Of a stretch of 37,884 nt of DNA, positions 3,787-21,724 are shown piece by piece. Origin of the DNA: Chloroflexota bacterium. GTDB taxonomy: Bacteria > Chloroflexota > UBA11872. Position 1 is the first letter of the stretch; each line of letters opens with the position of its first letter. A program made the position numbers and the translations under genes. Below the pieces are notes generated by a model that was not told the DNA's origin, did no database searches, and was given only the letters and a program-made list of their open reading frames with translations. The stretch covers positions 58,108-95,991 of the forward strand of contig JAPPKM010000090.1 in NCBI GenBank assembly GCA_028874315.1, given 5' to 3'.

Positions 3787-4023
3787 CTAGTCGATGTCGA
3801 TTCGTTCCGACCTGCTGTTTGTCGTGCCGTCGTCCCGCTCGTCAACGGCCTGAATCCCAGCGTCCAGGACCTCACGCAGGCTGATCATGGCTTCCCGCAC
3901 GGCGCTGCGCATATGCCCGCCGGCCTTGCCCACACCGACCTGCGGTCGATCGATCTCGATCGTGATGCGAATCGGTCCGGCATGAACATGACCGCCGGCG
4001 CCACCCTTCTCCTCGGTCGTCAT
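3787..4023 (-). CDS. Small conserved protein of unknown function, upstream of the binding-protein genes
   Basis: The product is 78 residues, starting MTTEEKGGAGGHVHAG. The ATG at 4023 is preceded by GAGGG with a 5-nt spacer; an ATG five codons upstream (4038) lacks such a site. An N-terminal Gly/His-rich piece is followed by a short strand-like GPIRITIEIDRP and a probable helix (HMRSAVREAMISLREVLDAG), then an acidic/polar tail. I do not recognise the family. That it is a real gene is supported by a homologous remnant at 1889-2058 with conserved protein sequence. It is co-oriented with, and 204 nt upstream of, the binding-protein gene, which has its own putative promoter. Confidence 0.6.
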   Translation of the reverse strand: MTTEEKGGAGGHVHAGPIRITIEIDRPQVGVGKAGGHMRSAVREAMISLREVLDAGIQAVDERDDGTTNSRSERIDID

Positions 4024-4161
4024 TCCGGCCCTCAGCATCGGGGAACAGGAACACTCAGTATAGCCACGAAATCGTGCGGTCCAGACTTCAGAGGCTCAAC
4101 GATGTCCCGCACGTCCGCGAGCGTCGCTCGTGTGTCTCGCCCGGCGAGCCGCACGCGCCGG

Positions 4162-4695
4162 CTAGGGCTGGAGGCCTGAACGCGGTGCCGCCCGAGCGCC
4201 GAAGGCACGGCCGCAATTCATGCAGAAGTTCGCCATCGAATCGTTGATTCCGCCACATGCGTCGCATTCGATACTGGCGGGCACCTGGGTCCCGCAGTTT
4301 GAGCAAAAGTTCGCACTCTCAGGATTGAGGTGGCTGCAGATCTGGCAGGCGCGCCGCCGATTCATGCCGGCCGTCGCGTGTCCCAGGCGTGCCTGGGCGC
4401 CGTCGCGGGCACTGGTGAGCTGCCGGGCATCCAGATCAAGGGTTTGGGACAACGCCTGGATGTCGTCTTCCGGCACAAACGTGATCTTCCCGGTCTCGAC
4501 GTCGCTTAGCCATGGCCGGTCCCGGCCGATCGCCGTCGCCACCTGCGCCTGTGTCAGGCCGTGCAGGCGACGCGCGGTGAAGATCAGACCGCCAAACGTC
4601 CCGCGGTCAATGTCGTGAAACGCACGCTTCTGTAGCTTTCGCCGCGCCACTGGCGACCGATCAAGCGCTCGCAAGCTCCAAGGCAACCCGAGCAT
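4162..4695 (-). CDS. XRE-family regulator with two C-terminal zinc ribbons
   Basis: The product is about 177 residues. The middle part (FTARRLHGLTQAQVATAIGR through SDVETGK) is a helix-turn-helix of the XRE/Cro type. The C-terminus carries two zinc ribbons, CQICSHLNPESANFCSNCG and CDACGGINDSMANFCMNCG, each with two CxxC pairs. An ATG at 4695 is used; a TTG at 4719 is the alternative, and neither has a clear ribosome binding site. DNA binding through the HTH and a zinc-structured C-terminus for protein contacts or sensing are inferred. The ribbon type (NPxxxxFCxNC) is the same as in the membrane protein at 7800-8699. An inverted repeat just upstream (4724-4751) is a candidate autoregulatory operator. 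A short hairpin around 4118-4130 follows the stop. Confidence 0.82.
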   Translation of the reverse strand: MLGLPWSLRALDRSPVARRKLQKRAFHDIDRGTFGGLIFTARRLHGLTQAQVATAIGRDRPWLSDVETGKITFVPEDDIQALSQTLDLDARQLTSARDGAQARLGHATAGMNRRRACQICSHLNPESANFCSNCGTQVPASIECDACGGINDSMANFCMNCGRAFGARAAPRSGLQP

Positions 4696-10881: not shown

Positions 10882-12096
10882 CTAGGCGCCTTGCCTCGGC
10901 GGCGCGGCGGCTGTCGGGCGCGCCGAGAAGCGCACGCGGAGCTGGCCATCCACCAGCCGAGCGCCGCTATGGGTCATTCGAGCCAGCACGCGCGGCAGCA
11001 CAATGTTGCGTCGCGCGGCGCCCATGCGAATCACCAGTTCATCGCCACGTCGGACCAACGAGGCGTCGGATTTCTCGAGAAACGGGGCGGGAATCCGAAA
11101 CTCGAACCCACCCTCCACTTCGACAATCTCATAGGGCTTGTAGTCGATCAGCCGGTCCGAAGGCTCGCAAGTCGCGTGCATCTGCGCGCCCATGACGCGC
11201 AGCCGGTCAAGCCCCACGACCTCGTGGGAGAACTGGTGAACTCGCAGAATCGGTATCGGGTCGAACATGGCATGGATGTCCTGCAGATACGGCGCCTGCA
11301 TGGCCCGCCGCTGCTCCGCGAATCGTCCTTCGGCCTCTTCGGACACCACCCTGTTCACCACCACGGCATCGGTGATGTGGTCGTACAGGGTGAGGTAGGT
11401 GTAGCTGCGCTGTGCCTCGCGAATCACCATCTTTTCCGGATTTACAACCAGGCGCACGGTGGTCGTGTTCGAGGCCGTCAGGGTGTCGTGCAGCTGTTGC
11501 AGTTCGTCCACCAGGTCCGTCATGGCCTCGAACACATCGTCTTCGGGCAGCGGCAGGTCGGTGACCCGCCGGGCCATGGGCCGCACCATGCGTGCCAGGT
11601 GGCGGTTGATGGGCAGCAGCTTGTCCAGCCACCATCGACCAACTTCAGGGAACGCCAGCAGTCGCAGGGTTTCTCCCGTGGGTGCGCAGTCAACCACCAC
11701 CACGTCGTACTCGCCGGATGAGGCGTGCCGGTTCACCCAGAGCAGGTTGGCAAGTTCTTCCATCCCCGGAAACACAGCAATCTCTTCGGCGAGTACGTTA
11801 TCCATGCCGCGCCAGGTGAGTACCGCTTCAACCCAGTTCTGCACCGTGCCCCAGTACGTTTCGAGGTTGTAATAAACGTCGCATTCCTGCGCCCACAGGT
11901 TGTCGACCACGGGCTTGGGCACGGGTCCCAGCGGCGTATCGAGTGAGTCGCCCAGGCTGTGAGCCGTATCCGTGCTGAGAACAACAGTGCGCAAACCGGC
12001 ATCGGCGCAACGTAGCGCCGCGGCCGCCGCAACGCTGGTCTTGCCAACGCCGCCCTTACCGGTGTATAGCAGGATGCGCGGTGAACGCTTAGTCAT
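10882..12096 (-). CDS. ArsA/GET3-family ATPase
   Basis: The product is 404 residues. The N-terminus holds the deviant Walker A GKGGVGKT (residues 13-20), followed by switch-like STDTAHSLGDSL and VVVDCAPTGETLRLLAFPE, all hallmarks of the ArsA/GET3 branch of SIMIBI ATPases. The C-terminal ~85 residues (FEFRIPAPFL through GQLRVRFS) look like the HSP20/alpha-crystallin-like domain that many ArsA-like proteins carry. No CxxC zinc motif of GET3 and no ars genes nearby are seen, so arsenite efflux is unlikely. A role in targeting or maturation of membrane or metal proteins is more plausible but unproven. Its ATG overlaps the end of selD by 8 nt. Confidence 0.88.
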   Translation of the reverse strand: MTKRSPRILLYTGKGGVGKTSVAAAAALRCADAGLRTVVLSTDTAHSLGDSLDTPLGPVPKPVVDNLWAQECDVYYNLETYWGTVQNWVEAVLTWRGMDNVLAEEIAVFPGMEELANLLWVNRHASSGEYDVVVVDCAPTGETLRLLAFPEVGRWWLDKLLPINRHLARMVRPMARRVTDLPLPEDDVFEAMTDLVDELQQLHDTLTASNTTTVRLVVNPEKMVIREAQRSYTYLTLYDHITDAVVVNRVVSEEAEGRFAEQRRAMQAPYLQDIHAMFDPIPILRVHQFSHEVVGLDRLRVMGAQMHATCEPSDRLIDYKPYEIVEVEGGFEFRIPAPFLEKSDASLVRRGDELVIRMGAARRNIVLPRVLARMTHSGARLVDGQLRVRFSARPTAAAPPRQGA

Positions 12097-13171
12097 CGGA
12101 ATCGTCGACGGAGTCAGCCGGACGCACGTACATAAGCCAGCTGTCCTGCGACGTTACCCGGCCCACGGTGGCCGCGGCCGGTGTACCGGCACGCTCGAGG
12201 GCGTACCGCAGGGCGGCTTCGTCTTCAGGCGGAATGGCAATCAGCAGCCCGCCGCTGGTCTGCGCATCGGCCAGCAGAATGCGCTCGGACATCTCCACCG
12301 CCGGATGCCAGTGAACATCGCCTTCCAGTGAGGCCAGATTGCGCTCGGTCCCCCCGGGAACTTCATCGGCGGCGATGAGCGACCAAACCTCGGGAAGCGC
12401 CGGGACTTCGTCGACGTAAACCTCGGCCGAGACGCCGCTGGCATTCAGCATTTCGCGCAGATGCCCCAGCAGGCCATACCCCGTCACGTCGGTCACCGCA
12501 TGCGCGCCGTGATCACTCGCAGCCCTGGCCGCGTCGGCATTGAGCGTGGTCATCGACTCGATCGCGGCCTCTAACGCGGTCTGGCTGGCGGCGTCGAACT
12601 TGCCGGCGGTCGTGATGATCCCGGTGCCCAACGGCTTCGTGAGCACCAGCAGATCGTCCGGACGCGCGCCGGCGTTCGTGCTGACGGCCTCGGGATCCAA
12701 AGTCCCCAACACCGCCAAACCGAACTTGGGTTCAGGGTCGTCGATCGAATGTCCACCGCCGATTACCCCCCCCGCTTCCAGCACCTTGTCGGCCGCGCCG
12801 CGCTGAACGTCGGCCAGCAAGTCCAGCGGCAACGTGCCGCGCGGCCACCCGGCGATGTTAAGTGCCAGGAAGGGTGTGGCGCCCATGGCATAGAGATCGC
12901 TCAACGCATTCGCGGCCGCTATCGCGCCAAAGCTGTACGCGTCGTCCACGATCGGCGTGAAGACGTCCGTCGTGAAGGCAATGGCCAGGTCGTCGCGCAG
13001 GCGGTACACCGCGGCGTCATCCATGGCCTGTCCCCCGACCAGCAGGTCGGGAGCGACCATCGGCGGCATTAGGCGCAGCACGTGTGCCAGCTCGTCAGGA
13101 CTGAGCTTGCACGCTCAGCCGGCGCCGTGCGCGTACCGTGTAAGTTTGAGTGGCGTCTTTTCGCGATCCAT
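12089..13171 (-). CDS. selD: Selenide, water dikinase (selenophosphate synthetase), itself a selenoprotein (TGA = Sec19)
   Basis: SelD makes selenophosphate from selenide and ATP, the selenium donor for selenocysteine and selenouridine. An uninterrupted frame covers only 12089-13081 and lacks the catalytic N-terminus. Reading upstream through TGA 13115-13117 gives MDREKTPLKLTRYAHGAG-U-ACKLSPDEL, which matches the family motif HGAGCGCK with Sec in place of the catalytic Cys. The ATG at 13171 gives 360 residues, close to the usual SelD length. ATP-site motifs follow: DDAAVY, TTDVFTPIVDD, GGHSIDDPEPKFGLAV, DVTGYGLLGH, PGGTERN, DAQTSGGLL. A hairpin at 13084-13112 fits a bacterial SECIS. It is first in a chain with the ArsA-like gene (8-nt overlap). 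The start codon has AGGA directly adjacent rather than at normal spacing. Confidence 0.93.
13084..13112 (-). promoter_or_regulatory. Bacterial SECIS-like hairpin in selD
   Basis: Two nucleotides after the TGA, GTGC pairs with GCAC, then an A/G mismatch, then AGCTC pairs with GAGCT, closing a 9-nt loop AGTCCTGAC. Position directly 3' of the Sec codon, stem length and loop size fit a bSECIS bound by SelB. The fold is read by eye; loop identity has not been tested. Confidence 0.7.
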
Positions 13172-13248
13172 TCCTGAACGGTAGCGTAACGCCGCCGTCC
13201 GCGAACTCCGTTCTTGCACTCGAAAGCATTGAGGAGCCAGCGGTTCCG

Positions 13249-14571
13249 TTGTCCCTGTCGCACCGTCTCACCGTTCGGGGCCTGATTGTCGTTGGCCTGG
13301 CGCTGGCATTAGTCATCGGCGGTGTCGGGCGGGTTGCCGGAGCATCACCTTTGGAAGCCACGGCGGTAACGGGCGGCGCCTTCTTCGAGCGTGCGGACGC
13401 CGCTGGCCTGGGCTTTGCGATTCGCAACTACGCTGACGGTCCGGCCTTCTACGACGCCTACCTGCGACTTGGCGGCGCCCAAACGCTCGGCCCTCCGGTG
13501 TCGCGGCCATGGGTCGACGATGGAGGCCTTGTCTACCAGGTCACCCAGCGTGTCCTGTTGCAGTGGTCGCCGGCCGACGACCAGGTTGGTGTGGCCAGTC
13601 TATTCGAACTGCTGAACGACGCCGAGTTCGGCGATGAGTTGCGCGCACGTCACATCCCGACCGCTGAGACTCCGCCAACGCTAGCGCCTGAGCTCGCACA
13701 GCAGGCTCGGCTGAACTGGATGACCGACCGTGCCATTTCCGCGAAGTTCGCCAACAGCCCACGAGGTCGCGCCAGCCTGGACGCAAGCATCCAGTTTTAC
13801 GGCCTGCCGATGTCACGGCCGATACGTCTGGGTCCGTTTGTGGTCCAGCGATTCCAGCGCACCGCCTTGCAACACTGGGTGGAGCAGGTGGCGGACGGAC
13901 AGCCGGTTGGCTCGGTCGTGCTGGTCAACGCGGGCGATATCTACCGCGACCTGGCGCTGCCTGACGAGTTGCTCGCCGAACCGCACGAGCCCGATCACGC
14001 CGCCGTGTTGGACGTGCGGCTCGACCCACCGGCGGATGCCGATCTGCAAACGGCGCCAATTGCGCAGCGCGTCTACAACACGGACAGTCACATATTGCGC
14101 ACCGCACTGGCGCTGCTGGAGGGTGTGGAAGTCAATGCCGTGGCGCTGGAATTTGCCGCGTCTGCGCAACTCGCAATCGGGTTCGACACACTGCCCGGCG
14201 ACGTGCTGGCTACGTACCACGCATCGCTGGGGATTCGAGTCAACGAGAAATGGCGCCGCGAGGATCCGCCTCCGCTGGCGGCCGTGCTCGCCCACGAATT
14301 GCGGCATTTCGAAGACTTTAGGCTGGGCCGGCTTGGCGAGGACAGCCAGAGCTGCCTGGACGCGGAGGCGCGCGCGCTCACGCGCGAGGTCGAAACCTGG
14401 ACGGCACTGGTCTCCGACGACGACCCTTCCCCTCAGGCGAGTGAGCTGGTGCGCATCCAGAGCAGCCGGGCGGCGGTCTACGCCGAGGGTCCAGACGCAA
14501 TTGACGACTTGGCCCGGCGTCTTTACCAGGAGGACTGCGACAAGACGCCAGTCGTGGAGACCGAGGCTTAG
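13249..14571 (+). CDS. Exported HExxH putative metallopeptidase with N-terminal surface module
   Basis: The product is about 440 residues. A hydrophobic segment (LIVVGLALALVIGGVG) acts as signal or anchor. An N-terminal module of about 200 residues follows (YDAYLRLGGAQTLGPPVSRPW, VASLFELLN, WMTDRAISAKFANSP, YGLPMSRP, VVQRFQRTALQHW). The same module heads the beta-lactamase-like protein at 22647-24221. The C-terminal half has HELRH at residues 349-353 with Glu-rich helices after it, the zinc-binding signature of gluzincin-type metallopeptidases. Substrate unknown. The start is uncertain: TTG 13249 follows GAGGAG (13231-13236) with a long spacer. A GTG at 13150 would add 33 residues but would overlap the 5' end of the divergent selD. 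Confidence 0.72.
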   Translation: MSLSHRLTVRGLIVVGLALALVIGGVGRVAGASPLEATAVTGGAFFERADAAGLGFAIRNYADGPAFYDAYLRLGGAQTLGPPVSRPWVDDGGLVYQVTQRVLLQWSPADDQVGVASLFELLNDAEFGDELRARHIPTAETPPTLAPELAQQARLNWMTDRAISAKFANSPRGRASLDASIQFYGLPMSRPIRLGPFVVQRFQRTALQHWVEQVADGQPVGSVVLVNAGDIYRDLALPDELLAEPHEPDHAAVLDVRLDPPADADLQTAPIAQRVYNTDSHILRTALALLEGVEVNAVALEFAASAQLAIGFDTLPGDVLATYHASLGIRVNEKWRREDPPPLAAVLAHELRHFEDFRLGRLGEDSQSCLDAEARALTREVETWTALVSDDDPSPQASELVRIQSSRAAVYAEGPDAIDDLARRLYQEDCDKTPVVETEA

Positions 14572-16634: not shown

Positions 16635-17261
16635 ATGGCCGCCCAATCCTCGCTCCCGAGTCTCTCCACGCGCCGGGTGCCGTTACGCAAGCCCATGACT
16701 CCTGAGGACCTCGCCGACGCGCGCGTTCGCGAGGCCCTGGGCGAAACGGGCCGATGCGAATGGGCGCAGCGGCACGACGGGCTTCGGCAGTATCACGACG
16801 ACGTCTGGGGCGAACAGCCGGCAGACGACTCGGCGTTCTTTGAGCGCATGCTCCTCGAGATATTCCACGCCGGCCTCAGTTGGACGCTGATCTGGAATAA
16901 GCACGAGGGGATTCGCGCCGCCTACGACGGTTTCGCTGTTGACGCTGTGGCCGCCTACGGCACGACCGACATTGCTCGCCTGCTCGACGACCCCAATGTC
17001 ATTCGCAGCGAGCGGAAGATCGTGGCGGCCATCGAAAACGCGCGGACCGTGCAGGAGATCCAGGATCGCGGCGGCTCCTTCCAGGCCTTCCTGCTTGATC
17101 TCCCCACGAGCACCAACGCCAAGATCAACTCCCTTAAAAGGACCTTCCGCTTCATGGGGCCCGGCACGTCGCGCGCATTCCTGGAATCGACCGGCCTGGT
17201 CGCGCCGCCACACCACGACTACTGCTACAAGGCCAACCGCGAGGTCTGGTCCGACGTCTGA
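16635..17261 (+). CDS. tag: DNA-3-methyladenine glycosylase I
   Basis: The product is 208 residues, a base-excision-repair glycosylase removing 3-methyladenine from alkylated DNA. It shows CEWAQRHDGLRQYHDDVWGEQ (zinc Cys and His plus the family start), FHAGLSWTLIWNKHEGIRAAYDGF and the C-terminal zinc pair in HHDYCYKA. The ATG at 16635 has AGAGGA about 8 nt upstream and gives an N-terminal extension of about 20 residues relative to the usual start; ATG 16695 is the alternative. The next gene begins 10 nt after the stop. Confidence 0.93.
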   Translation: MAAQSSLPSLSTRRVPLRKPMTPEDLADARVREALGETGRCEWAQRHDGLRQYHDDVWGEQPADDSAFFERMLLEIFHAGLSWTLIWNKHEGIRAAYDGFAVDAVAAYGTTDIARLLDDPNVIRSERKIVAAIENARTVQEIQDRGGSFQAFLLDLPTSTNAKINSLKRTFRFMGPGTSRAFLESTGLVAPPHHDYCYKANREVWSDV

Positions 17262-17271
17262 GGGCACGCCT

Positions 17272-18303
17272 TTGACCACGGTCGCGCTGGATGACTTGCG
17301 ATGGTTCGGACGCGCGGCCTTGGCCACGCGTGGCGTGCGCAAGGCCGACGCGGCCCTGGTGATCGACGTCATGCTGGAGCAGGACCTGCGCGGCCACGGC
17401 CACCACGGAATCGTGCTGCTGGCGTTGCGAATACGGGACCTGGATGCCGGACGTGCCCGGGCCGACGCGAAGGTCGAAGTACTGGCCGACTTGCCCGCCT
17501 TCACGGCGCTCGACGCTCACGGCGCGCTGGGTCCGATTGGCGCCGTGCAAGCCATGGACGTCTGCATATCCAAGGCGCAGACCCAGGGGGCCGCCATGGC
17601 CTCGTTACGCGACATGCCGCACTGGGTCATCCCGGCCTTCTACAGCATGCGCGCGGCGGCGGCCGGTCTCGTTGGGTACTGCTGCTGCTTCACCGACCCC
17701 TCGTTCGCCCCGGTTGGCGGGGCCTCGCGCGTGCTGGGCAACAACCCCTTGTCATACGCGATCCCCGCCGATCCGCGCCCGCCGATCGTTGTGGACTTTG
17801 GCGTCTCCGCCTCAACCGGCCGGATGCGCGAATTGGTGGCCGACGGTCAGCCCTTGCCGGACGGCTGGGCTGTTGACACCGGCGGACGCCCACTCAGCGA
17901 CCCCGCGCAGGCCATGGCCGAAGGCGTCTTTCTTCCAATTGCCGAACATCGCGGCTACGGCCTGGGCCTCGTCCACGAATTGCTCGCCGCAACCCTCAAC
18001 GCCATGCCCATCGCGCTCGAAGCCCCGCCCGGTCGCTACGGCGGCTTCTTCATGGCCTCTCGCGTGGACACCTTCCGTCCGCGCGACCAGTTCCTTCGCG
18101 ACGTCAACCACGCGCTCGATCGAGTGACCGAGAGCCCAGGGCTGGACCCCGCCCGCCCCATCCGCTACCCGGGCGAGCAGTCTGGCCTCGCCCTCCGCCG
18201 CAACCGAGCCCGAGGCCAGGTCGACCTCAGCACCGCCTCCTGGAACCGCGTCCACGAAGTCGCGGAGCTCTCCGGGGTGCCGGTGCCCACGCCGGTGGGC
18301 TAG
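17272..18303 (+). CDS. Ldh2-family NAD(P)-dependent malate/L-lactate-type dehydrogenase
   Basis: The product is 343 residues of the Ldh_2 (malate/L-lactate/ureidoglycolate/sulfolactate dehydrogenase) family, structurally distinct from classical MDH/LDH. Hallmarks are QDLRGHGHHGI near the N-terminus, LGNNPLSYAIPA, VVDFGVSASTGRM, LPDGWAVD, DPAQAMAEG and EHRGYGLGLVHELLA. The TTG start at 17272 sits just after GAGGG overlapping the stop of tag; the frame stays open upstream but only as an alternative frame within tag. Substrate (malate, lactate, sulfolactate, ureidoglycolate) is not decidable from sequence. It converges with the GlyA-GcvT gene, with only 16 nt between stops. Confidence 0.88.
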   Translation: MTTVALDDLRWFGRAALATRGVRKADAALVIDVMLEQDLRGHGHHGIVLLALRIRDLDAGRARADAKVEVLADLPAFTALDAHGALGPIGAVQAMDVCISKAQTQGAAMASLRDMPHWVIPAFYSMRAAAAGLVGYCCCFTDPSFAPVGGASRVLGNNPLSYAIPADPRPPIVVDFGVSASTGRMRELVADGQPLPDGWAVDTGGRPLSDPAQAMAEGVFLPIAEHRGYGLGLVHELLAATLNAMPIALEAPPGRYGGFFMASRVDTFRPRDQFLRDVNHALDRVTESPGLDPARPIRYPGEQSGLALRRNRARGQVDLSTASWNRVHEVAELSGVPVPTPVG

Positions 18304-18319
18304 CCGCCAACGCGACCTC

Positions 18320-21300
18320 CTACCGGAAGCGCGAGACGACGACGGCGTTGGCCGGAAGCGGGTAGCGCCCGCCGCGTTTGAGTTCGCGGGGAACGGTGGC
18401 GCGGCCGCCGCGGCGGGCGGATACGCCGGCGAAAACGCGCAGCGGCGTGCCCTCGGCGCTCACGCGCTGCATCACGTGGGCCATGCCGACCTGCCGCTGA
18501 TTGGTGTCCAGGGCCGCGCTGGTAACGATCCCGACCCAGCCGCCGCGGGCGTCGACGACCGGATCGCCTTCACGGGCAATCGGCACGCGCTCGTCGGTGA
18601 TCGTGAAACGCACGATCTGGCTGGTACGGCGCTTCTCACGGGCGATGAAGCCGGAGCGTCCGATGAAGAACGGCTTGTAGAGCTTCACGAACCCGCCAAA
18701 GCCCGCGTCGCCTGGCGTCAGGTCCAGTTCGCCGCCCAGCTCGTGGCCGTAGAGCGGCAGCCCCGCCTCGGTGCGCGTGGAGTCGCGTGAGCCGAGGCCG
18801 GCCGGCCGCACGCCGTCGTCGAAGCCCGCGTCCAGAATCGCCTGCCACAGGTCGTTGGCCGCGTCGGGATGTACGAGCAGTTCGAAGCCCACGCGCTCGC
18901 CCGTGTAGCCGGTGTGCGCGACTTCCATCGGAATGCCGGCCAGCGTGAACGTTCCTACGTCAAAGGCGCGCATGCGCCGCAGCCGCCGGCGGGATTCCTC
19001 GTCGGGCGCCAGCCGTGCCAGCACGGCGCGTGAGCGAGGACCTTGCAGCGCCAAATCCAGGCGTTGCTGATCACCCTCCTCAGGGGCCTTCAGGTCGCGC
19101 AACGTCACCTGCACCGGCGCGGTCGCCCACGGGTCGTTGGGCTCGATCTCGTACTGCCGCTCGTTCACGCCGTTCAGCCACACCCAGTTCTTCTCGGTAT
19201 TGGCCGCGTTCACGACCGCCAGGAAGCGCTCGCGCTCCAGGCGATAGATGATCAGGTCATCCAGCGGGTGGCCGGTCGGGTCCAGCAGGTAGGTGTAGGC
19301 CGCGCGGCCGTTGGGAAGCCTCGAGGCGTTGGCGGTGGTGACCAGGTCAAGAAACTCGCCGGCGTGGACGCCCTCCACGGCGAACACGCCCATGTGTCCC
19401 ACGTCGAACAGGCCGGCCGCCTCTCGAACTGCCGCATGCTCTTCTGCGATGCCCCCGTAGTAGACCGGCATGGACCAGCCGGCGAACGGCACCATGCGCG
19501 CGCCCAGGTCGTTGCTATGCACGTCGTGCAGCGGCGTCTGTCGGAGCGGGTCGCCTTCGCGCCAGAGGCCACCCAACAGGGCTCCCCACACGGGGCCGCG
19601 CAATTGGACCTGGGCCAGTGGATCGCTGGCCTCCGCCGACCAGTCAAACGCCGGCCGCGCCTCGGGCTTCTCCGCGGGCAGCCGCCCACTTCGTCCCAGG
19701 TAGAACGGACGACCTAGATCAGGCGCCGGGGCCAGCGGCAATCGCGTTCGCACGATACTTCGCGACGCCAGGTTCGCTTTCACGGCAACGGCGTCAGCCG
19801 CCGGATAGAGAACCACGGCCGCGCGGCCGTCGCGGGCCAGCAGGACCGGCGCGCCGGCCATTTCAAGCCGGGTTATTCCTGGTTCCGCGCCCAGGTGGTC
19901 GGCGTCCGCCGCGTTGATCACGACCCCGGTGATACCCGGGGTCAGGTGCGCCGCGTCGGCAACGGCGATCGGTCCCACGATCTTGCGGCTGGGCTCGTCC
20001 GCGTCGATCAGCGCGTAGCCATCCGCGATTTCCCGCAGCCACTCGACCGCGCACTCGCTGATCGAGGGATCGAGCACGGCATAAAGCCGGCGGTCACGCG
20101 GCGACCTTTCGTCGTCCGGTCTCACAAACAGCGCTGGCTGGACATCGCCTGCGGGGTCGGAAATCCCGGCGTGAACTGCTTCGCCCGGACCCAGATCGCG
20201 AATCCGCTGATCCGAGATTTCGTCGGCGAACGCGAGCACCCGGCGCCCGCGCAATTCCAATACGCCTGAGGGAGACTGAGCGGGTGCCGCCGGTACATCT
20301 TCCGCGCGCCCGCGCGCCGCGAAGTCGGAAACATCCTGGCGGAGCTGGAGCTGCGCGAGAAAGTCGATCCGTCCGCGGTAGCGGGGCGACCGCCGGCCCG
20401 GGTACGTCACGCCCACCATCGCCTGGAATGCCCGCGCCAGGATGTCGGCTAGCACGCCCATGTCGTCGGTTGTGTAGCCACGCTGGGCCAGCCACGGTGT
20501 CCCCAGGCGCACGCCCGTCGGCGCCGCGAATCCCACGTCGCCGGGCAGCGAGTTCCGATTGGCCACAATGCCGATGCTGTCCAGCATCCGAACCGCCGGC
20601 TCGCCGCGCAGGTCGCCGCCGGCGCCCGTGCGCTTCAGGTCAATCACCAGCAGATGGGTATCGGTCCCTCCGTAAGCCAGTCCGACGCCACGCGCCGTCA
20701 GCGCCTCGGCCAGCGCCGCCGCATTGGCTCGGATCTGGTGCTGCGTGGCTTTGAAACCCGGAGAGTCTGCGACCTTAAAAGCCACGGCCATGGCCCCAAC
20801 CTTGTTGAGGTGCGGCCCGCCCTGTTCGCCCGGAAACACCGCCCGGTCGATCCGGCGCATCAGCCGTCGCCGGTGCGACAGGATCACCGCGCCGCGCGGT
20901 CCGAACAGCGTCTTGTGCGTGGTAAAGGTGACAATGTCCGCCAGTCCGACGGGCGACGGGTATTCGCCCGCCGCAACCATTCCCGCCGGGTGCGAGATGT
21001 CAGCCAGCAGGTAGGCGTCCACCTCGTCGGCGATGGCTCGGAACCGCTCCCAATTCGGCGTCCATGGGTATGAGGTGTAGCCGGCCACGATGATGCGCGG
21101 ACGGTCGCGTCGGGCGATGTCGGCGATCTGGTCGTAGTCCAGCCGGCCGTCCACGTCGTCGATGCTGTAGCTGGACGCTTGAAACCGGCGGCCGCTGCGG
21201 TTGACCGAGGCGCCGTGGCTCAAGTGACCGCCGTGGGCCAGGGCCAGACCGAGGATTCTGTCGTCGGGCTCCAACAGCGCTTCGTAGACGGCATTGTTGG

Positions 21301-21724
21301 CCGCCGCACCCGACAGCGCCTGCACGTTGACGTACAAGCTGTCGGCGGAGACGCGCGCATTGGCAAATAGCGACGCACAGCGCCGCTGGGCCAGCGCTTC
21401 CACCAGGTTGGTGTAGTCGTTGCCGCGGTAGTAGCGGCGGTCCCCGTAGCGACGGAAGCGCGCCAGCTGGCCTTCCGTGTCCGCCAGTCGCTCCGGCTCG
21501 TCGCGACGCATCGGCCCGCTTGGGTATCCCTCGCCATAGATGCTCGTCAGCGGCGATCCCAGCGCGGCTCGCACCGGGGCCGGCGTCAAGCTCTCCGACG
21601 GAATCAGGATCAGCTTGTCGCGCTGGCGGCGATGTTCCCGCGCAATCAGGTCCGCCACCAGGGGATCGACATCGTCGAGGTCCTGGTCGAAAACCAGATC
21701 GGCGTAGGTGGGACTAGCGGTCAT
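18320..21724 (-). CDS. Fused serine hydroxymethyltransferase - aminomethyltransferase (GlyA-GcvT)
   Basis: The product is 1134 residues in one frame. Residues 1 to about 470 are an SHMT-like PLP enzyme: EGYPSG, ALAHGGHLSHG, DISHPAGMV, PLP lysine Lys271 in TFTTHKTLFGPRGA, and GGTDTHLLVIDLK. There is an insertion of about 25 residues after EGYPSG, and LILIPSES in place of the usual ELIASEN. Residues about 728-1134 are the T-protein: ARMVPFAGWSMPVYYGGI, GLFDVGHMG, YTYLLDPTGHPLDDL, AHTGYTGERVGFE, GLGSRDSTRTEAGLPLYGHEL. In between are about 255 residues I cannot assign. SHMT interconverts serine and glycine with THF; GcvT moves the aminomethyl carbon of glycine to THF as methylene-THF. A fusion would place both methylene-THF-handling steps on one chain. 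No gcvH or gcvP is in the window. A dimethylglycine/sarcosine-type folate demethylase is an alternative role for the C-terminal half. Confidence 0.9.
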   Translation of the reverse strand: MTASPTYADLVFDQDLDDVDPLVADLIAREHRRQRDKLILIPSESLTPAPVRAALGSPLTSIYGEGYPSGPMRRDEPERLADTEGQLARFRRYGDRRYYRGNDYTNLVEALAQRRCASLFANARVSADSLYVNVQALSGAAANNAVYEALLEPDDRILGLALAHGGHLSHGASVNRSGRRFQASSYSIDDVDGRLDYDQIADIARRDRPRIIVAGYTSYPWTPNWERFRAIADEVDAYLLADISHPAGMVAAGEYPSPVGLADIVTFTTHKTLFGPRGAVILSHRRRLMRRIDRAVFPGEQGGPHLNKVGAMAVAFKVADSPGFKATQHQIRANAAALAEALTARGVGLAYGGTDTHLLVIDLKRTGAGGDLRGEPAVRMLDSIGIVANRNSLPGDVGFAAPTGVRLGTPWLAQRGYTTDDMGVLADILARAFQAMVGVTYPGRRSPRYRGRIDFLAQLQLRQDVSDFAARGRAEDVPAAPAQSPSGVLELRGRRVLAFADEISDQRIRDLGPGEAVHAGISDPAGDVQPALFVRPDDERSPRDRRLYAVLDPSISECAVEWLREIADGYALIDADEPSRKIVGPIAVADAAHLTPGITGVVINAADADHLGAEPGITRLEMAGAPVLLARDGRAAVVLYPAADAVAVKANLASRSIVRTRLPLAPAPDLGRPFYLGRSGRLPAEKPEARPAFDWSAEASDPLAQVQLRGPVWGALLGGLWREGDPLRQTPLHDVHSNDLGARMVPFAGWSMPVYYGGIAEEHAAVREAAGLFDVGHMGVFAVEGVHAGEFLDLVTTANASRLPNGRAAYTYLLDPTGHPLDDLIIYRLERERFLAVVNAANTEKNWVWLNGVNERQYEIEPNDPWATAPVQVTLRDLKAPEEGDQQRLDLALQGPRSRAVLARLAPDEESRRRLRRMRAFDVGTFTLAGIPMEVAHTGYTGERVGFELLVHPDAANDLWQAILDAGFDDGVRPAGLGSRDSTRTEAGLPLYGHELGGELDLTPGDAGFGGFVKLYKPFFIGRSGFIAREKRRTSQIVRFTITDERVPIAREGDPVVDARGGWVGIVTSAALDTNQRQVGMAHVMQRVSAEGTPLRVFAGVSARRGGRATVPRELKRGGRYPLPANAVVVSRFR

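Follow-up and report, generated by a model that had tools for sequence, protein, structure and literature searches.

A selD gene with an in-frame TGA at its catalytic codon in a Chloroflexota genome

A selD gene of 360 codons, encoding a selenide, water dikinase, lies on the minus strand at positions 12089..13171 of the window (the whole 37,884-nucleotide stretch analysed here, from a Chloroflexota bacterium; assembly GCA_028874315.1, contig JAPPKM010000090.1, positions 58,108 to 95,991), and the presence of an in-frame TGA at the catalytic codon of that gene is confirmed. The gene is best explained, with a probability of about 0.96, as an ordinary functional selD whose product would carry selenocysteine (Sec) at its catalytic N-terminal position, with the UGA at codon 19 being decoded by the Sec-tRNA-Sec/SelB system; in this reading, which is drawn from sequence, we infer the insertion of Sec, the activity of the enzyme and a selC gene belonging to the organism itself.

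Translation on the minus strand from the ATG at 13171 gives MDREKTPLKLTRYAHGAG-U-ACKLSPDEL... and continues through 360 residues to a TAA (13171-12089), the length given in a preliminary description of this DNA. The only TGA within those 360 codons is codon 19 (13115..13117, minus strand), and the remainder of the frame is intact. The product matches the NCBIfam model TIGR00476 at 373.9 bits (cut-off 125) over nearly its full length (model positions 1-310 of 311), and NF002098 at 367.3 bits (cut-off 299). In an alignment with the solved SelD structure 3u0o, spanning residues 6-329, U19 falls opposite C17, the first Cys of HGAGCGCK in that protein, and the Lys three residues later is conserved, which bears out the earlier placement of the TGA exactly at the catalytic residue of this motif. 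Thus 3u0o carries Cys where the SelD of the window would have Sec; the two also differ at the following position, where residue 20 is Ala (HGAGUACK) rather than Gly, a variant that is common among homologues. Cys or Sec at the position equivalent to residue 19 is described, in a passage of PMC13188914, as the established catalytic residue of the family. As had also been anticipated, ordinary gene calling drops this part of the protein: in a table 11 listing of open reading frames the selD frame begins at GTG 13081 and runs for 330 amino acids, and residues 1-30, including the catalytic one, are lost.

The same codon was followed through 81 genomes, comprising that of the window and 80 relatives, in which a SelD-level match was defined by E <= 1e-50. 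Such a match was found in 67 of the 81, and 64 of those 67 contain one TGA inside the match; the exceptions are G061, G069 and G028, the last of which has a match that begins only at residue 60. Every relative from the same genus (12/12) and from the same family (6/6) has the internal TGA, at protein identities of 68-92%. The position of that codon was established for the 30 of the 64 TGA-bearing matches that were turned into loci (L001, L100-L128), and in all 30 it is the catalytic codon. Across 109 SelD loci that were read, a count that includes some contigs represented by two copies and from which four rows outside SelD had been removed, the catalytic codon is TGA in 78 and TGC or TGT in 31, such that Cys is the sole alternative residue. 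Among the 79 loci from named records, which come from the best 80 of 122 relatives, the codon is TGA in 48 and TGC or TGT in the other 31. Because the TGA in SelD is conserved in this way across relatives, its occurrence by chance is excluded.

The cellular machinery for Sec insertion is largely visible in the same genome, which is represented by a metagenome-type assembly of 3.34 Mb in 206 contigs, estimated to be 86.58% complete. Both selA (513 bits; cut-off 268) and selB (322 bits; cut-off 242) are present, and a search of this incomplete assembly with RF01852 did not find selC; all eight of the matches listed correspond to other tRNAs according to ARAGORN (Ser, Ser, Leu, Cys, Arg, Phe, Gly and Tyr). 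Of the 641 first-look candidates in that search, 150 were scored; in the run on all 81 genomes, the figure for this assembly was 45 of 646. No tRNA was found in the window, in the 20 kb before it, or in the 20 kb around either selA or selB. The relatives present a fuller picture: a strong tRNA-Sec match is found in all 12 from the same genus, and ARAGORN reports tRNA-SeC (tca) at each of the 10 selC loci tested from the same genus or family. Across the 81 genomes, a tRNA-Sec match of at least 59 bits (a cut chosen by the analyst, in the gap above tRNA-Ser-like matches) accompanies SelD in 61 of 67 genomes, versus 2 of the 14 without SelD (G023 and G058; Fisher p = 2e-8), and the six SelD genomes without such a match, among them that of the window, are all less than 90% complete. 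Of the expectations expressed in the preliminary description, that this lineage should possess selA, selB and tRNA-Sec, the first two therefore stand for the genome itself, and the third stands for its genus and was not borne out in its own incomplete assembly.

The missing selC is likely to reflect an assembly gap. In the relative G011 the gene occupies positions 3998-4094 of locus L163 and adjoins a gene for a solute-binding protein, and the corresponding loci of G004, G009 and G012 align to both of its flanks in unchanged order. The genome of the window aligns with L163 from position 4430 onward, with 89-98% identity, and that match stops at the final base (16245) of contig C145, 335 bases short of selC. 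The ending of a contig that carries the flanking genes at this point makes a gap the best explanation of the absence, as judged from the alignment. Weaker copies of some of the flanking sequence occur at other places in the same genome, and the alignment shrinks to about 120 nucleotides around selC for two further members of the genus, G002 and G003, and for four sister-genus genomes; the neighbourhood of selC is not fixed within the genus, and the argument from flanking genes rests on G011, G004, G009 and G012. As a separate observation, the assembly of the relative G008 contains two strong tRNA-Sec matches, at 73.1 and 71.2 bits (contigs C136 and C9); that on C136, a contig of 3,171 bases (L142, L164), is called as tRNA-SeC by ARAGORN and sits in a locus that has no match to the selC region of the genus, so that either the gene is present twice or the contig is a contaminant.

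Three other accounts of the interrupted frame can be weighed against these observations. A sequencing or assembly error, or a point mutation that has left a pseudogene, would mean that the codon is truly one for Cys or that the gene is dead, and the metagenome-type origin of the assembly, at 86.6% completeness and in 206 pieces, lends such an account some initial plausibility; set against the recurrence of the TGA within SelD in all 18 relatives of the same genus or family, and against an otherwise undamaged frame of 360 codons, it becomes very unlikely. Equally hard to credit is a shortened, SelD-like enzyme unconnected with selenium, starting after the TGA at GTG 13081. This start is what table 11 yields, but the peptide encoded ahead of the TGA retains the SelD signature LTRYAHGAG common to full-length Cys homologues, and in 12 of the 13 members of the genus, that of the window included, the ATG occupies the same position (the start in the remaining one, G003, lies 20 nucleotides later).

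That the UGA is instead read as some residue other than Sec, through a reassigned code or a near-cognate tRNA, is very unlikely. While selC was not detected in this genome, such a reading has to contend with the presence there of selA and selB and with a tRNA-Sec in every relative of the same genus, as well as with the use of TGA as an ordinary stop in the window, where it terminates 12 of the 29 open reading frames checked, and with Cys being the alternative at the catalytic codon in the 109 loci. The original reading of the gene as a Sec-containing SelD is accordingly upheld by the conservation of the TGA, by selA and selB in the genome and by further TGA-bearing genes described below, and these findings indicate that the Chloroflexota lineage to which the window belongs decodes UGA as Sec.

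A candidate bSECIS hairpin is found just 3' of the UGA (13084..13112, minus strand), as identified by folding and alignment. It consists of an upper stem (AGCUC/GAGCU) that is closed by a 9-nucleotide loop, AGUCCUGAC, and a lower stem (GUGC/GCAC), with a minimum free energy (MFE) of -14.5 kcal/mol. The bSECIS model summarized in PMC13188914 (in the legend to its Fig. 2) calls for a loop of 3-9 nucleotides with a G in its first two positions, an upper stem of 4-16 base pairs, an MFE of at most -7.5 kcal/mol and a spacing of 16-37 nucleotides from UGA to loop; a passage of the same paper notes that a subset of bSECIS elements fails this model. The hairpin of the window agrees with the model in its loop (9 nucleotides, with G second), its upper stem (5 base pairs) and its folding energy, and its loop lies slightly nearer to the UGA, at a spacing of 12 nucleotides (15 if an inner GU/AC pairing closes the loop), than the range of the model.

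Comparisons with randomized sequences gave a mixed picture of this element. Against dinucleotide shuffles the hairpin does not stand out (z = +0.30, with 116 of 200 shuffles folding at least as well). Against synonymous versions of the same coding sequence, the region folds more stably in Sec genes (mean z of -1.11; 34 of the 59 distinct sequences lie below -1) and does not do so in Cys genes (mean z of +0.19; 5 of 31 lie below -1), a comparison for which the p-values are too small, the sequences being related and the two sets differing in phylogeny and in base composition (many of the Cys genes are AT-rich). Other stretches of the Sec genes have a mean z of -0.10, and within the genus and family of the window 5 of 14 distinct sequences fall below -1. 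In the Acidimicrobiia, z lies between -1.19 and -2.00 for three Sec genes and between -0.24 and +0.66 for three Cys genes. Pairing was counted in a subset of the 59 distinct TGA sequences, namely 19 (12 from the same genus or family, four from other Chloroflexota and three from Acidimicrobiia), each chosen with the stem already visible; in other clades a stem is positioned differently. The pairs given above are preserved in 97.4% of cells, which equals the value for shuffled columns, and slid versions of the stem preserve 15-49%. None of the eight pairs displays a compensatory change in these 19 sequences, and covariation was set aside as proof of the hairpin. The short hairpin after the UGA would probably aid in the decoding of Sec.

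Upstream of the gene, six nucleotides before the ATG, is a 14-nucleotide block, CGTTACGCTACCGT (13178..13191, minus strand), which is present as CGTTACGCTACSGT ahead of selD in all 13 genomes of the genus, even where other upstream DNA fails to align. In 12 of those 13 an in-frame ATG follows six nucleotides after the block. In G003 the ATG is found 26 nucleotides after it, behind an in-frame stop, and so the block is non-coding in that genome. An in-frame GTG or ATG also lies 42 nucleotides before the end of the block in those other 12, which strictly leaves some room for a longer SelD N-terminus initiated there. The genome of the window contains CGTTACGCTACSGT once, within one mismatch, versus four matches of a reversed control pattern, so the weight of the element lies in its conservation and not in its rarity. 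The block is possibly a promoter or other regulatory element, on the strength of this conservation, and the TACGCT within it could act as a -10 element; no simple sigma-70-type promoter or terminator was found around selD in the interval 11900-13700.

On the downstream side, a gene for an ArsA-family ATPase (10882..12096, minus strand) begins with an ATG that overlaps the 3' end of selD by 8 nucleotides (12089-12096), and the two are possibly co-transcribed. Elsewhere in the window, two enzymes of one-carbon metabolism appear to be fused: a single frame of 1134 amino acids (18320-21724, minus strand) combines a domain of serine hydroxymethyltransferase with the folate-binding domain of an aminomethyltransferase (GcvT). 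A methyladenine-glycosylase frame (16635-17261, plus strand), which covers only positions 1-115 of the 177 in its model, overlaps the open reading frame at 16939-18303; the Ldh_2 domain of the latter begins at residue 116, and the overlap is probably due to an over-long start of that frame.

Searches for further selenoproteins and uses of selenium covered FdhA, AhpC/TSA, AhpD-like proteins and SelU. The check for other TGA-interrupted genes suggested at the outset was productive for one of these families: the genome of the window has 13 AhpC/TSA matches, and one TGA each is found in 4 of the 10 among the matches listed. These four genes (L185-L188; contigs C134, C58, C205 and C53) have the TGA in the contexts TWULSC, TPGU, TWUPNC and HWUSHC, which we take to be the active-site positions of such proteins, and the relatives contain similar TGA-bearing AhpC/TSA genes among the matches listed. 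The genome thus appears, from its sequence, to hold a multi-member set of Sec-peroxiredoxin-like genes, and these four genes rule out the idea that SelD is its sole selenoprotein, kept only to make itself. FdhA was rejected as a selenoprotein on the basis of an over-cut-off Fdh-alpha match without an internal stop in 13 of the 14 genomes searched; the genome of the window itself yielded only two below-cut-off stretches for Fdh-alpha. A use of selenophosphate for selenouridine was likewise rejected, as a search of 15 genomes for SelU (TIGR03167) gave no match and did recover the E. coli control. For AhpD-like proteins (PF02627, E <= 1e-5), two of the 15 genomes yielded three matches between them, all free of internal stops. 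Within the window, no other TGA-interrupted gene was evident by eye among the 29 open reading frames.

Selenoproteins of the SelD family are themselves long known. According to a passage of PMC4561486, many species have a SelD that is itself a selenoprotein, and 19% of the SelD genes in a prokaryote reference set encode Sec; together with the 48 TGA-bearing loci from named records above, this agrees with the earlier statement that Sec-containing SelD proteins are known in other bacteria. The Chloroflexi were listed in 2006 with three selenoprotein families, in a passage of PMC1794560, and are not mentioned in the relevant passages of PMC5029168 and PMC12013277; in the open literature searched, which is part of the whole literature, no title dealing with Chloroflexota selenoproteins, or with those of sponge Chloroflexi, was found. 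The SelD of the window belongs to the same family, and has its Sec codon at the same position in the N-terminal loop, as the TGA-bearing homologues of other Chloroflexota, Gemmatimonadota, Acidimicrobiia and Alkalicoccus, and it shares with the Sec-SelD/SPS2 proteins described in passages of PMC13188914, PMC4561486 and PMC1794560 the common occurrence of Cys homologues and, in its case as a candidate, a local stem-loop after the UGA. Nothing essential distinguishes it from these, and the gene is ordinary for the field, of a kind seen in many other bacteria.

In the mechanism proposed here, Sec-tRNA-Sec brought by SelB would decode the UGA at codon 19, most likely with help from the short hairpin that directly follows it. 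The resulting SelD would make selenophosphate, which SelA would use to form more Sec-tRNA-Sec, and this in turn would supply both SelD itself and the several Sec-peroxiredoxin-like proteins that the genome encodes. Under a shortage of selenium, translation would be expected to stop at codon 19 and to leave a peptide of 18 residues, such that the output of SelD would depend on selenium through a presumed feedback. A more elaborate proposal, in which selD throughout the genus is the hub of a selenium-sensing loop whose transcription is set by the 14-nucleotide element, whose output is tied by UGA-19 to its own product, and which supplies an unusual set of Sec-peroxiredoxin-like proteins while formate dehydrogenase operates without Sec, is speculative and considered unlikely.

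The finding of a Sec-containing SelD opens no long-standing question. It puts right a single gene annotation, in which plain calling of open reading frames loses the catalytic N-terminus of SelD, and, together with the TGA-bearing AhpC/TSA genes, it indicates that this lineage uses Sec in several peroxiredoxin-like proteins.
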